Assembly (NCBI GenBank): GCA_902591025.1 | Contig: CACIZB010000002.1 | Location: 62,001-126,000, forward strand | DNA length: 64,000 nucleotides | Origin: an uncultured Pelagibacteraceae bacterium | GTDB taxonomy: Bacteria > Pseudomonadota > Alphaproteobacteria > Pelagibacterales > Pelagibacteraceae | Direction of reading: 5' to 3' | Part shown: positions 6,318 to 17,649 of the stretch, in pieces | Layout of the letters: every line of letters starts with the position of its first letter | How positions within the stretch are numbered: the stretch's first letter is position 1 | Notes under the pieces: generated by a model | What the model saw: the letters and a program-made list of their open reading frames with translations, nothing else | The model's database searches: none | What the model was told of the DNA's origin: nothing | Made by a program: the position numbers and the translations under genes

Positions 6318-9300
6318 TATAGTTTAGTTGGCATCGGTTTAGTTATGTCTATTTTATATTTCTTAATAGCTTCTTTTGCATATTTAGAGGCAATTAATTG
6401 TTCTTTGGCTAGCACACTTAAGCCAAAAGTAACAACATGCTCTTTATCTACTTCAAAAAATTTCCTTAAATTTTTTCTTGTATCACTTCTTCCAAATCCA
6501 TCTGTCCCTAATGAATAAAAACTTTTGTTAACATATGGTCTTATTTGATCAGAGTTCATTCTCATATAATCAGAAGCAGCCAAAATAGGCCCTTCCACTT
6601 TGCCTAAACATTTCTCAACATAAGATTTTTTAGGTTCTTTGTCTGGATTCAAAAGATTATATCTTTCAACTTCTAATCCATTTCTTCTTAGCTCATTGAA
6701 ACTTGTTACACTCCAAACCTCACTATCTATTTGATATTCCTCTTGAAGTATTTCAGCCCCTGCTATCATTTCTCTTAGAATTGTCCCAGATCCCAAAAAT
6801 TGAATTTTTGTTTTTTTATACTTATTAAATTCTTTTACTTTATACATACCTTTTAAAATTCCCTCTTCACAAGACTTGTCTTTCGGCATAGAGGGGTGAT
6901 GGTAATTTTCATTCATGGTAGTAATGTAATAAAAAACATTCTCTTTTTTTTCATGCATTCTTTTCAATCCTTCTCTAAAAATGACTGCAAGTTCATAATG
7001 AAATGTAGGATCATAGGATACACAATTTGGTATTGTGGATGCCATAAGATGACTGTGCCCATCTTGATGTTGTAGTCCTTCACCAGCTAAGGTTGTTCTT
7101 CCAGCTGTTGCTCCAATTAAAAATCCTCTAGACTGACTATCTGCACCCGCCCAAGCAAAATCCCCAATTCTTTGAAAACCAAACATTGAATAAAAGAGAT
7201 AAATAGGTATCATTTCAATATCATGATTCGTGTATGAAGTGCCTGCAGCGATCCAAGAAGACATCGCACCAGCCTCGTTAATTCCTTCCTCCAAAACTTG
7301 TCCACTTTTCTCCTCTCTGTATGAACTCAATTGAGCAGAATCTTCAGGCTCATATTTCTGTCCTTCATGAGCATAAATACCAATTTTTTGAAAGAAACCT
7401 TCCATTCCAAAAGTTCTAGCTTCATCAGGAATAATCGGTACCAATCTAGGAGCAACATTTTTATCTCTTAAAAGATTTGTAAGCATTCGAACTAAAGCCA
7501 TCGTTGTAGACATCTCTTTTTTTCCTGTAGACTCTTTCATGTTGTCAAAAATATCTTTTGGTGGGGCTTTAATTGGTTTTGCATAAGTAGTTCGCTCTGG
7601 AATGAATCCACCTAATTGAAGTCTTTTTTCTTTAAGGTACTTTATCTCTGGGGAATTTTGACCTGGTTTATAATACTCAATATTTTTAACCTGCTGATCT
7701 GTAAGAGGCACATCAAATCTATCTCTGTAGTACATCAAATCATCGATATCCAGCTTTTTAGTTTGGTGAGTTGTGTTAACACTTTCTCCACTTTTGCCCA
7801 TGCCATAACCCTTTATAGTTTTTGCAATTACGACAGTTGGGCTTCCAATATTTTTTGATGCTTTATCATATGCAGCAAAAACTTTGTGAGGGTCATGTCC
7901 ACCTCTATTCAATCTCCAGATATCTTTATCTGAAAGACTAGAGACCAATTCAGAGGTTTCTTTGTATTTACCAAAAAATTTTTCTCTCACGTAAGCACCA
8001 TCTCTTGCTTTCATGGCTTGATATTCACCATCAACAGTCTCGTTCATAGTTTTTATTAGATGGCCTGTTTTGTCATTAGCTATTAGTGGGTCCCAATATG
8101 ATCCCCATATCACTTTAATCACATTCCATCCTGCACCTCTAAAAATCCCCTCCAATTCCTGTATAATCTTTCCATTACCTCGGACCGGTCCATCTAATCT
8201 TTGTAAATTACAATTCACCACAAATATTAAATTATCTAAATTCTCTCTTGCCGCTAAACCGATAGCACCTAAAGACTCAGGCTCATCCATCTCTCCATCT
8301 CCTAAAAAAGCCCAAACTTTTCTTCCTTCATCTTTAATAAGTCCTCTATTTATTAAATATTTCATATATCTAGCTTGATAGATTGCCAACATTGGGCCTA
8401 GACCCATAGACACAGTTGGAAATTGCCAAAAATTCGGCATTAACCAAGGATGTGGATATGAAGATAATCCACCAGGATTTACTTCTTGTCTAAAACTGTC
8501 TAATTGTTTTTCATTTAATCGACCTTCAAGAAAAGCTCGTGCATACATACCTGGTGCACTATGACCTTGAAAATAAACTAAATCACCTCCAAATTTATTA
8601 TTTTTAGCTCTCCAAAAATGATTCATTCCCACATCGTAAAGAGTTGCAGCAGAGGCGAATGTTCCTATATGACCACCAAGTTCAGGAAATTTTTTATTTG
8701 CTCTTACTACCATCGCAGCCGCATTCCATCTTATTAATGATCTTATCCTTCTTTCTATATTTTGATCACCATTAGATTTTTTTTCCTCATTCGCTGGAAT
8801 AGTATTTATATATGGTGTGTTTTGAGTATACGGAATATTAGCACCTTCCATGTAAGCTTTATTAATTAATTCTTTTATCAAATAATGAGCTCTTTGATTG
8901 CCATCTTTTTCAATAACAGCAGACAGCGACTCTAACCACTCATTTGTCTCTAATGGATCAATATCTTCCTTATTTACAACTTGAATAATTTTTTGTTTTT
9001 CTTTTTGTATATTTTGAATAATTTTTTTTGGTTCTGGATTTTTTTTTAAAGAATTTTCAGCCTCTTGAATTAAATTTTCAGTATTTTTAGGTACTTCATT
9101 AGTTGATTGAGATGTATCGTTAAAGTTAGTAATATTCAAAAGCAAGTCACCTTTAGAAACTTTATCTCCAACTTTTACTTTAATAGATTGGATTTTGCCC
9201 GATAAAGTAGATGGTATTTCCACGCTAGATTTATCACTCTCTATGGTAACCACTGGGTCATTCTTGCTAATTTCTTGTCCTTCTTTAACAAGCAGTTCTA

Positions 9301-14007: not shown

Positions 14008-14421
14008 ATGATATTTTTCAAAAAAAAAGAAAATATTGATGACAATCAATTAGTAAAAATTGGAGCATTATTAATACATGCAGCTAGAATAGATGAGGAT
14101 TTCACTCAAGAAGAAGAAAATATTATTAAACAAACACTAATAAACTTAGATGCAAGAAATGAAAATATAGATGAAGTCATTGAAAAAGCAAAAAAGATGG
14201 AAGAAAGTTCTAATCAAATTTTAGATTTCACAAAAGAAGTTAAAAATATGGAGGAAAATAAAAAAATAAAGATTGTTAAAACTTTATGGAAAATTATTTT
14301 CTCTAATAAAAAAGCTGATGTATTCGAGGCTAATCTCATGAGACGACTTGCTGGATTGCTATACATTGACAGTAAAATTATGGGGGATATAAAAGAACAA
14401 ATAAAAAAAGAAAATTCTTAA
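14008..14421 (+). CDS. TerB-like (tellurite resistance TerB family) protein
   Basis: The 137-residue, mostly helical acidic protein has a TerB-like pattern: [23 protein letters not shown], then a second half with [14 protein letters not shown]. Conserved acidic residues in the first helix pair probably bind metal. The name is historical and does not show tellurite resistance. It starts one base after the helicase stop region and its own stop overlaps the fdxA ATG. Confidence 0.75.
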
Positions 14422-14747: not shown

Positions 14748-15573
14748 AAAAAAATCAAAAAAAATCATCAAAAAAAACTTAAAAAAGTCATCCAAAAAAA
14801 ATATTTTAAAATCAAAAAAAAAAATATCCAAAAAACTTTTAAAGCCTAAACTTAGAAAAGACCTTGAAAAAAAACAAAATATTAAAAATAATAAGGTATC
14901 TGAGTCAAATAAAGAAAACCTAAGAATTTCAAAAACAAATGAGTTAAAGCCTGAAATTAAAAAAGTTAAGAAACAAGAAACTGAAAAAAGAAACTATAAA
15001 ATTAAAGATTATATTGTTTATCCTAAACATGGAGTAGGTCAAATAACAGAGTTTAAAAAAATTAACATAGGTGGTATCGATGTGGAAACTTATGTCATAA
15101 AATTCGAAAAAGATAAGGCAAATGGAATGGTGCCCGTTAATAAACAATCGCATCTTCGCCCCCTAGCGACTATTAATCAAGTTAACAAATGTATTTCGAT
15201 TTTAAAAAGTAAACCAAAAATTAAAAGATCAATGTGGAGTAGGAGAGCTCAAGAATATGAGGCGAAAATCTCATCTGGAAAAATTTATGAATTGGCAGAG
15301 GTAGTTAGAGATTTAAATAAAGGTGATGACCTTATGGTTGATCAGTCCTATAGCGAAAGACAGCTTTTTGAAAAAGCATATGAAAGAATTTTATCTGAAT
15401 TTAAGATAATATTAAACTTTTCTATGGAAGAAACACAAAAAAAATTGGATAAAGCATTGAAAAGGAATTCAGAAAATTCTCAAAATGTAAAGCCAGATCC
15501 TATAAAAACTGTTTCAACAGACCTTTCGGATGATGAGCCTGTCACTGAAACTGAGGAAAATTTAGAGCAATAA
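14689..15573 (+). CDS. carD: CarD-family RNA polymerase-binding regulator with polylysine N-terminal extension
   Basis: CarD proteins bind the RNA polymerase beta subunit and stabilise promoter open complexes. The CarD domain begins near residue 103 ([20 protein letters not shown]) and runs with its helical C-terminal part to about residue 260. A short acidic tail follows. Unusually, residues 5 to about 100 are almost purely Lys, Ser, Asn and Ile, so the protein is about 290 residues against roughly 170 in many Alphaproteobacteria. The start could be 14689 or the ATG at 14704; both lie inside fdxA, and no later Met precedes the domain. A bidirectional hairpin terminator follows the stop. Confidence 0.88.
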
Positions 15574-15574
15574 A

Positions 15575-15614
15575 AAAACGCTTCTCACACGTAAATCGTT
15601 ATGAGAAGCGTTTT
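15575..15614. terminator. Bidirectional rho-independent terminator (carD / polybasic ORF)
   Basis: AAAACGCTTCTCA and TGAGAAGCGTTTT form a perfect 13-bp stem with a 14-nt loop. Arms carry A-runs on one side and T-runs on the other, so it can end transcription from both sides. It begins two bases after the carD stop and ends 20 bp beyond the stop of the convergent small basic ORF. Confidence 0.85.
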
Positions 15615-15634
15615 AATTTAAGAATACTAAGTTT

Positions 15635-15712
15635 TTATCTTCTTCTTCTTTTTTTAGCTTTTTTCTTAGCTTTTTTCTTAGCCTTCTTCGCTTTTTTTCT
15701 TCTCTTAGGCAT
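15635..15712 (-). CDS. Polybasic micropeptide, 25 residues
   Basis: The frame encodes MPKRRKKAKK, then repeats of KKAK, ending KKRRRR: every residue except Met, Pro and the alanines is Lys or Arg. A good ribosome binding site (AGGGAG) lies 7 bases before the ATG. Upstream are a hairpin and a promoter with a perfect TTGACA, and downstream is a strong terminator, so the gene appears as a complete unit of about 190 bp. The composition suggests nucleic acid or ribosome binding, as in small basic ribosomal proteins or histone-like tails; this is inference. It is too short for the ORF track. AT-rich codons AAA/AAG could arise by chance, but the surrounding signals argue for a real gene. Confidence 0.7.
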   Translation of the reverse strand: MPKRRKKAKKAKKKAKKKAKKRRRR

Positions 15713-15734
15713 CTTTAGCTCCCTTATTTAGTTA

Positions 15735-15755
15735 AACGAATCAAAATGATTCGTT
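15735..15755 (-). promoter_or_regulatory. 5'-UTR hairpin of the polybasic micropeptide gene
   Basis: AACGAATCA and TGATTCGTT form a perfect 9-bp stem around a 3-nt loop. It lies between the predicted transcription start (near 15758) and the ribosome binding site, so it would cap the 5' end of the short mRNA. It could stabilise the transcript or be a protein or operator site. Confidence 0.6.
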
Positions 15756-15764
15756 ATTAACTTA

Positions 15765-15793
15765 TTTTTATTTTTTTATACACGTTATGTCAA
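15765..15793 (-). promoter_or_regulatory. Promoter of the polybasic micropeptide gene
   Basis: On the minus strand a perfect -35 box TTGACA (15793-15788) is followed after 17 bp by TAAAAA (15770-15765). The predicted start lies just upstream of the 9-bp hairpin. The rest of the non-coding stretch up to 15910 is AT-rich and holds only a doubtful 25-codon frame. Confidence 0.5.
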
Positions 15794-15909: not shown

Positions 15910-17649
15910 TTAATAAAGTTTTTCTAAATCTTCTTTATATTTTTCTAAAATTTTTTTTCTTTTTATTTTTAAAGTTGGGGTTAACATTCCATTTTCAATT
16001 GTAAATTCGTCATAAATTAATTTAAATTTTTTAATTTTTTCAGTTATTGACAAGTTTTTATTTAAGTTTTCAATGTAAAGTTGGATTTCTTTATTATTTT
16101 TTTCACTTTCGGTCACAATTAGGGAGACTAAGTAAGTTTTTTTATCTCCATAAACGAAACTTTGTTTGATTTTCTCATTAAGGCATAACAAATTTTCAAT
16201 TTTTGATGGTGAGATGTTATCTCCACCGAGATTAACTATTATTTCTTTTTTTCTATCAGTAATTTTTAAATTTCCCTCTTTAGTTATCTCACCGATGTCG
16301 CCTGTATGCAACCAACCATCTTTTAAAACCTCGTCAGTTTCTTTTTTCATATTCCAGTAACCAAGCATTACATTTTCACCTTTTACTAAAATTTCTCCGT
16401 CTTCGGCAATTTTTACTTTATTTGTTTTAAAAGGCGGACCAACAGTCTCGATTTTTATTTTCCCTGGAATATTACAGCTCACTACAGGAGAAGTTTCTGT
16501 CAAGCCATACCCTTGTAAGGTTGGCAAACCTATAGAATTCAAAAATTCACCTATTTTTTGATCTAAGGCCCCACCACCAGAAACAAAGGCCTCTAGTTCT
16601 CCACCAAACTGATTTTTGATTTTTCTTCTCACTAAAATTTCACAAAAAAAATTCGTAATTTTTTCTCTAAGATTTAATTCCTGTTTATTTAAATTTTTAG
16701 TGCCTATTAAAATAGTATTTTCTATTAATTTTCTTTTTAATCCTTTTTGTTTTGAAAAATTGAGAAAAATTTTACTATATAAATTTTGATAAAATCTTGG
16801 TACAGCAGTCATAATGGTAGGTTTTGCAATAGCCATATTAGGTAACAGTTTTTCTAAACTTTCAGCATAGTAAATTTTTGATCCAAATAAAATTTGGACA
16901 TATTGAACAGTATGTTCGTATGAATGGGACAATGGAAGCCATGTTAAAAAAACAGGTTTTTTATCTTTAACTAATAATTCTAGAATTTCTTTTGCACCTT
17001 CACAATTTGATAGAATACCTCCATGACTTAACATTACTCCTTTTGGATACCCAGTAGTCCCTGATGTGTAAATAATACAGGCTAAATCATTTCTTTTTAA
17101 ATCTTTATTATAAAGGTTAATATTCTTAAGAAAATCTTCAGAGTAAGGTTCTGCTATTGAAAAAATATCTTCAAAGAATTTTATTTTTTTATCAAATTTG
17201 TCGATTGAAATAACGATCGTGTTTTCCCTTATATGATTTTTAATTTTATCAAATTGAAAAGAATTCGAGACAATACAAACTTTTGGGGCACAATCATTAA
17301 TAATATATTCATAGTCATTTTCAGAATAGGTTGTAAAAAGTGGAACAGTTACCCCACCTGCATTCATTATTGCTATATCAGATATCAACCATTCAGGTCG
17401 ATTTTCTGATAATAGAACACACCTATCACCCTTAGAAATATTTTTTTTCAAATAGTTTGATAATATCTTTATTTTTAAATAAATATTTGCCCACGAATAT
17501 GAAAATGGTCCAGAATTAGTATCTGAAAAATCTTTATTTTTAAGTGAAACTAAAAAAGTTTCTTTATGAACATTAATTTTTTTAGAAAAATTTTCTTCGT
17601 ATTTAAGAAAAAAAAGCTCAACTAAACTATTTATCTCTTTTAATTCCAT
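15910..17649 (-). CDS. Long-chain acyl-CoA synthetase (AMP-forming)
   Basis: The 579-residue enzyme activates a carboxylic acid with ATP and CoA. The AMP-binding motifs are IIYTSGTTGYPKGVMLSHGG near residue 190, YGLTETSP near residue 375 and GWLHTGDIGEI near residue 440. Overall layout resembles FAA1/FadD15-type long-chain ligases, so fatty acids are the likely substrate. No acyl-CoA dehydrogenase is nearby. It starts just after the minus-strand tRNA-Leu and could be on the same transcript. Confidence 0.9.
   Translation of the reverse strand: MELKEINSLVELFFLKYEENFSKKINVHKETFLVSLKNKDFSDTNSGPFSYSWANIYLKIKILSNYLKKNISKGDRCVLLSENRPEWLISDIAIMNAGGVTVPLFTTYSENDYEYIINDCAPKVCIVSNSFQFDKIKNHIRENTIVISIDKFDKKIKFFEDIFSIAEPYSEDFLKNINLYNKDLKRNDLACIIYTSGTTGYPKGVMLSHGGILSNCEGAKEILELLVKDKKPVFLTWLPLSHSYEHTVQYVQILFGSKIYYAESLEKLLPNMAIAKPTIMTAVPRFYQNLYSKIFLNFSKQKGLKRKLIENTILIGTKNLNKQELNLREKITNFFCEILVRRKIKNQFGGELEAFVSGGGALDQKIGEFLNSIGLPTLQGYGLTETSPVVSCNIPGKIKIETVGPPFKTNKVKIAEDGEILVKGENVMLGYWNMKKETDEVLKDGWLHTGDIGEITKEGNLKITDRKKEIIVNLGGDNISPSKIENLLCLNEKIKQSFVYGDKKTYLVSLIVTESEKNNKEIQLYIENLNKNLSITEKIKKFKLIYDEFTIENGMLTPTLKIKRKKILEKYKEDLEKLY

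Follow-up and report, generated by a model that had tools for sequence, protein, structure and literature searches.

A conserved gene for a very small H1-like basic peptide in SAR11 bacteria, with an extended CcrM/GcrA motif near its promoter

Results

The polybasic open reading frame (ORF) that converges on carD in an uncultured Pelagibacteraceae bacterium is a real and complete protein gene that is conserved in SAR11. We propose that it encodes a minimal H1-like protein that binds nucleic acid, and that its transcription would be tuned by GcrA and CcrM, and hence by replication; we give this reading a probability of about 0.5.

Locus and parts of the transcription unit

The analysed stretch of DNA, referred to as the window, comprises 64,000 nt (assembly GCA_902591025.1, contig CACIZB010000002.1, positions 62,001–126,000 of the forward strand). 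An earlier note, made from the letters of this DNA, had described a complete miniature transcription unit for a 25-residue polybasic peptide. All of its parts were found on the minus strand in the order described, with the ribosome-binding site, the peptide and the 13-bp bidirectional terminator as reported:

14752–15573, plus strand: carD/cdnL (CarD_TRCF_RID and CarD_C domains), convergent neighbour and conserved synteny anchor
15576–15614: bidirectional intrinsic terminator of 13 bp (arms 15614–15602 and 15588–15576), common to the small gene and carD
15635–15712, minus strand: ORF of 25 residues, MPKRRKKAKKAKKKAKKKAKKRRRR, with 19/25 Lys or Arg and a net charge of about +19
15719–15724, minus strand: ribosome-binding site AGGGAG (GGAG core), 6 nt 5' of the ATG
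15735–15755, minus strand: 5' leader hairpin AACGAATCA-TTT-TGATTCGTT of 9 bp (arms 15755–15747 and 15743–15735, 3-nt loop)
15737–15743, minus strand: TGATTCG, a second, inverted copy of the motif in the 3' arm of the hairpin
15747–15753, minus strand: CGAATCA on the gene strand (TGATTCG on the plus strand), an extended CcrM (GANTC)/GcrA motif, predicted near +5
15764–15775, minus strand: probable −10 region, weak (TAAAAA or AAAAAT, spacing 17–18), in an AT-rich block conserved in the genus
15788–15793, minus strand: −35 hexamer TTGACA, a perfect match
15910–17649, minus strand: AMP-binding acyl-CoA synthetase, the upstream neighbour within the family, replaced in the sister family

The perfect −35 hexamer that had been pointed out for the promoter is present, but the strength ascribed to it was overstated, the −10 region being weak. 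With AAAAAT at a spacing of 18, the two elements together reach 10 of 12 consensus matches. In this AT-rich window, the number of promoter-like matches does not exceed chance (13 seen versus 11.4 expected from shuffles); the promoter is credible because it is conserved across genomes and not because it matches the consensus. The terminator has a tail of seven T residues on the side of the small gene and a weaker one on the carD side, and it is also present in relatives. Our terminator scan missed it for the sole reason that a loop of 13 nt is longer than the scan allows. Folding of the full-length transcript gives a z-score of −5.6 relative to dinucleotide shuffles. At the gathering threshold, two tRNAs are the only Rfam matches in the window.

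Conservation and selection

Using carD as a synteny anchor, which was detected in 118 of 150 related genomes, we found a K/R/A-rich ORF convergent with it in every locus of the order with enough contig. Further loci came from named GTDB genomes, mostly single-cell genomes of Pelagibacteraceae. The two loci without a complete ORF (L029 and L147) are cut at contig ends. The convergence on carD that the earlier note had described thus holds in every such SAR11 locus, and relatives lacking the ORF, which would have spoken against the gene, did not turn up in the synteny search.

The peptide has a length of 21–35 residues in the genus of the window, for example MPKKRKKAAKKTKKKAKKKAKKKAKKRRRK or MATKKKAKKAKKKTKKKAKKAKKAKKRKR, and of 21–58 residues over nine genera of the same family. 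The sister family has versions of 40–99 residues (MEELKVIFAKARKKAKKKAAPKKKRKAAKRKPAKKK...) with Ala/Pro/Lys repeats resembling those of Hc2 and AlgP, and such a longer version is present in genus g14, too. Length differences correspond to steps of the AKK, AKKK or AAPKKKK type that leave the reading frame open. A codon comparison gave a pooled pN/pS of about 0.30, and among the 33 sites that vary in sets of genes encoding an identical peptide, 32 are third codon positions. The reading frame is therefore under purifying selection in the 148 distinct genes, which are related to each other and not independent events, and which come from nine genera in one family and four in another. Genes broken by stops or frame shifts with only the hairpins preserved were not seen; the sole frame shift, in locus L179 (genome G451, genus g19), lies in a run of eight A and affects the last few codons, leaving the basic core intact. 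It lengthens the C-terminus to 47 residues with a hydrophobic tail (L179:1997–2140, minus strand) and may be an assembly error or real.

Within the 64 kb, the gene is the only ATG-initiated ORF of 20–150 residues with a Lys plus Arg fraction of at least 0.5, and 60 order-2 Markov windows contained no ORF with a fraction of at least 0.6. A chance ORF is ruled out by the cross-genome conservation, the codon statistics and this Markov null. The gene has probably been overlooked in SAR11 until now. A 2009 survey of Pelagibacter intergenic regions moved unlisted coding sequences into its supplement (PMC2704228). Proteomics would miss the peptide because its tryptic fragments are too small for detection.

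Distribution and apparent absences

Twenty-four genomes negative for the palindrome or for the gene start were checked for carD. Nineteen of them also have no detectable carD. In the other five the carD contig stops about 30–260 bp from the match or inside carD, and in one of these (L205) the peptide gene is still visible at the contig end. No clear case of a true loss in relatives was found, and the negatives look like unassembled loci, although genomes without both carD and the peptide gene could be real deletions. In the five (L205–L209) the carD contig ends in or just past carD; these assembly breaks are perhaps due to the high conservation of the unit between co-occurring strains.

Outside Pelagibacterales, the exact pattern of the gene start (M-A/P-K-R...), which is blind to distant versions, had no match in a class sample of 289 genomes, and no comparable ORF lies beside carD in the non-SAR11 Alphaproteobacteria loci inspected (L153–L172). 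A phage origin was considered and rejected, as viral contigs gave no match to the leader plus start pattern, again an exact pattern that would not find distant versions.

The leader: an invariant motif within a hairpin

The 148 distinct genes have the same leader layout, TTGAC-(32–36 nt)-CGAATCA. CGAATC is found in 148/148 and CGAATCA in 147/148 of them; the lone exception (L027) reads CGAATCG and retains the GANTC. In all 147 genes with the motif, a −35 element of the form TTGAC(A/T/C) lies 32–36 nt 5' of it. L179 and L196, which filters placed outside the set of 148, also have CGAATCA. The distance from CGAATC to the ATG varies from 36 to 63 nt, in contrast to the nearly fixed distance to the −35 element. 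CGAATC is therefore an element of the promoter or of the 5' end rather than of the ribosome-binding site. The ribosome-binding region itself, AGGGAGCTAAAG-ATG, is near-invariant across the genus of the window.

A hairpin with ΔG < −3 is predicted in 148/148 leaders. Of the 147 genes, 77 have TGATTCG in the second arm, 50 have a different GANTC there and 20 have neither. The 3' arm is often changed yet still pairs, whereas the 5' arm is almost invariant. In genera g12–g14 and g18 the stem is shifted and CGA is unpaired in ten genes, but its bases are still invariant. We conclude that two layers are conserved here, one of shape, in the hairpin, and one of sequence, in CGAATC(A). The 9-bp 5' hairpin described earlier is thus present, but it is not only an RNA hairpin, since its 5' arm coincides with a CcrM/GcrA motif of the DNA that hardly varies.

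Genomes of the genus of the window contain about one copy of the palindrome, and the arrangement TTGACA-N28..40-CGAATC occurs once in the window's own genome. Both counts speak against a genome-wide palindrome regulon. Several genera and the sister family (L187–L195, L051–L067) have an upstream CUCC or CCUCU element that can pair with the GGAG of the ribosome-binding site. The Shine-Dalgarno sequence is predicted to be paired in 9 of 20 f1-other leaders, in 2 of 17 f2 leaders and in none from the genus of the window. Such pairing could possibly provide translational control or autoregulation.

GcrA, CcrM and GANTC methylation

GcrA is a sigma-70 cofactor that reads GANTC methylation. It is encoded (PF07750) in 26 of the 31 genomes examined, and 28 of the 31 encode a RAMA domain of the CcrM type. 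The window's own genome has both, and its methyltransferase shows the CcrM architecture (N6_N4_Mtase plus RAMA). GANTC is depleted in the window (117 versus 189 expected), as reported for genomes with CcrM (PMC3973325); TGATTCG is not (6 versus 3.9 expected). Four other TGATTCG sites are located at 7224, 9761, 23328 and 35264. In the cultured Pelagibacter NP1, 99.86% of GANTC sites are fully methylated, with a gradient from origin to terminus (PMC9516812). TGATTCG, or more broadly YGAKTCK, has been proposed as the extended methylation motif of GcrA-activated Caulobacter promoters; Brevundimonas GcrA shows no preference for an extended motif, and a published search for likely GcrA targets in Pelagibacter yielded very few (PMC7987155).

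The SAR11 promoter resembles those of Caulobacter mipZ and ctrA P1 in being sigma-70-like and in having GANTC in a TGATTCG context. The GcrA-dependent mipZ promoter contains two juxtaposed GANTC sites (PMC3667746), and the leader in the window likewise has two close ones. The position of the site is different. In Caulobacter, activating GANTC sites cluster between −35 and −10, and sites outside this region go along with lower expression when the others are activated (PMC4287350). The SAR11 site, in contrast, does not lie between −35 and −10; it is found 32–36 nt past the −35 element, at a predicted position near +5. Pelagibacter also differs in having no ctrA (PMC2877005). On the hemi-methylated ctrA P1 promoter, GcrA binds across the −35 region and, less tightly, from +5 onwards (PMC3667746), and a function of GcrA at the +5 site would be compatible with this footprint. 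The two encoded proteins, the GANTC in 148/148 leaders and its TGATTCG context in 147/148 agree with a GcrA/CcrM promoter; in view of the position of the site, we do not claim membership in this class.

The product and its known relatives

In 63 distinct peptides the composition is 52% Lys, 20% Arg and 18% Ala, and acidic or aromatic residues are absent. Small residues recur with a period of 3.6–4 (power 2.3–2.8 versus 1.06 for shuffled sequences). Composition and spacing would fit a helix with an alanine stripe that is formed on a polyanion. H1 tails are likewise thought to become helical on a polyanion. The very small ribosomal protein bTHX of Thermus, of about 26 residues and strongly basic, is similar in size and charge and has no other sequence resemblance. 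Unlike ribosomal proteins of this type, the SAR11 peptide has no conserved specific residues and no synteny with ribosomal genes.

Six representatives had no match above the cut-off in Pfam or NCBIfam, which is a weak test for sequences of low complexity. We call the peptide H1-like and not a member of Hc2 because no curated profile matches it. The term refers to the Lys/Ala-rich, basic composition of low complexity and to the length variation by lysine-rich repeat units. The first of these features, a Lys/Ala(/Pro)-rich tail, is common to chlamydial Hc2/HctB, Pseudomonas AlgP and the SAR11 peptide, and Hc2 also varies in length by short lysine-rich units (PMC2848022). The KKAAPKKKK repeats of the sister family are like those in Hc2 and AlgP tails, and it is through the longer versions that the mini form is linked with the composition class of H1-like proteins. 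AlgP, however, has an N-terminal domain of 124 residues (PMC9239181), whereas the 21–35 residues in the genus of the window leave the peptide without a second domain. The CcrM/GcrA motif in the promoter and the missing profile match are further differences from Hc2 and AlgP.

Proposed mechanism and alternatives

Based on the conserved sequences and on the biochemistry of the Caulobacter system, we propose the following course of events. RNA polymerase with sigma-70 would bind the promoter with its strong −35 and poor −10 elements. GcrA, held by sigma, would sense how the GANTC near +5 is methylated and change the formation of the open complex, either as activation or as repression. Passage of the replication fork would convert the site from full to hemi-methylation and thereby set the time of expression. 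The hairpin formed by the same bases probably protects the short mRNA, which would end at the shared terminator. The peptide, in essence a basic tail whose alanine stripe has a helical period, would attach to nucleic acid by electrostatic forces. As judged from its composition, the likeliest target is chromosomal DNA, with the peptide as a tiny nucleoid-associated protein coating newly replicated DNA. We infer DNA binding, the action of GcrA and a cell-cycle timing of this gene. We favour DNA over RNA in view of the longer homologues with their H1-like character, the repeat-type length variation and the methylation-marked promoter, although a charge of 19+ binds RNA as readily as DNA. No regulon backs the GcrA reading because the −35 to CGAATC arrangement occurs only once in the genome. 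In its most specific form, a "linker histone" of 21–35 residues made in step with replication through a CcrM/GcrA methylation switch at its promoter, the proposal is tentative.

Alternatively, the gene could be real and its palindrome act only as a 5'-terminal hairpin of the RNA, the GcrA match being incidental. Such a hairpin might stabilise the mRNA or bind a protein, perhaps the peptide itself in an autoregulatory manner. It is predicted in every leader, pairing persists with the different 3' arm of g12–g14 and g18, the base pair next to the core switches between A-U, G-U and G-C, and a 5'-terminal hairpin would likewise have its place fixed by the promoter; in some leaders, moreover, the Shine-Dalgarno sequence can be paired, as in the nine f1-other cases above. 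Pairing does not explain, however, why the unpaired CGA of ten genes is invariant or why the 5' arm stays constant when the 3' arm drifts, and the constant heptamer coincides letter for letter with the extended CcrM/GcrA motif, CcrM and GcrA both being encoded in the genome. We regard a pure RNA hairpin as a rather unlikely explanation. The suggestion that the RNA itself is the functional product and the ORF a by-product draws on the strong flanking hairpins and the short transcript. It is effectively refuted by the codon positions of the changes, that is by codon-level purifying selection, and the length differences that keep the frame open and the lack of an Rfam family match also speak against it; we give it next to no weight.

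With regard to the target of the peptide, its size, its charge and the lack of acidic and aromatic residues would suit any polyanion, and the strong ribosome-binding site and the terminator suggest abundance. An RNA- or ribosome-binding small basic protein, like bTHX in size and charge, is nevertheless an unlikely identity compared with a DNA-packing one. Ribosomal proteins need specific contacts, but no residues are fixed here beyond charge and small spacers; the repeat changes its length in a copy-number-like manner unlike in ribosomal proteins, the longer versions have AAPKKKK repeats resembling H1 tails, and a GANTC-marked promoter better suits a replication-linked product. Polyphosphate had been named as another possible target, and AlgP of Pseudomonas, an H1-like protein with KPAA repeats, indeed associates with polyphosphate granules (PMC9239181). 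The window's own genome has a polyphosphate kinase. This enzyme is found in only 8 of the 31 genomes, however, and is absent from the complete genome G012 (L027), which has the peptide, so that polyphosphate binding appears very improbable.

Implications and genomic neighbourhood

SAR11 bacteria are the most abundant bacteria of the ocean, few cell types on Earth are more numerous, and their regulatory repertoires are among the smallest of free-living organisms. A universally conserved candidate target with an almost invariant methylation site provides a concrete promoter for the study of their cell-cycle control. If the proposed H1-like function and GcrA control are true, the gene would be a bacterial analogue of histone expression in S phase, with the synthesis of a packing peptide coupled to the passage of the fork. 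It also illustrates how small an H1-like protein can get under genome streamlining.

The convergent neighbour has features of its own. In SAR11 CarD, the domain that interacts with RNA polymerase is preceded by a long N-terminal extension rich in Lys (window, L179, L187, L059). In the genus of the window the protein ends in an acidic C-terminal tail, and the CarD of the sister family is also extended and Lys-rich. A gene of the TerB family (PF05099) is located at 14008–14421 on the plus strand of the window, and most family loci inspected have a conserved run of a Suv3-type helicase, terB, a ferredoxin and carD.
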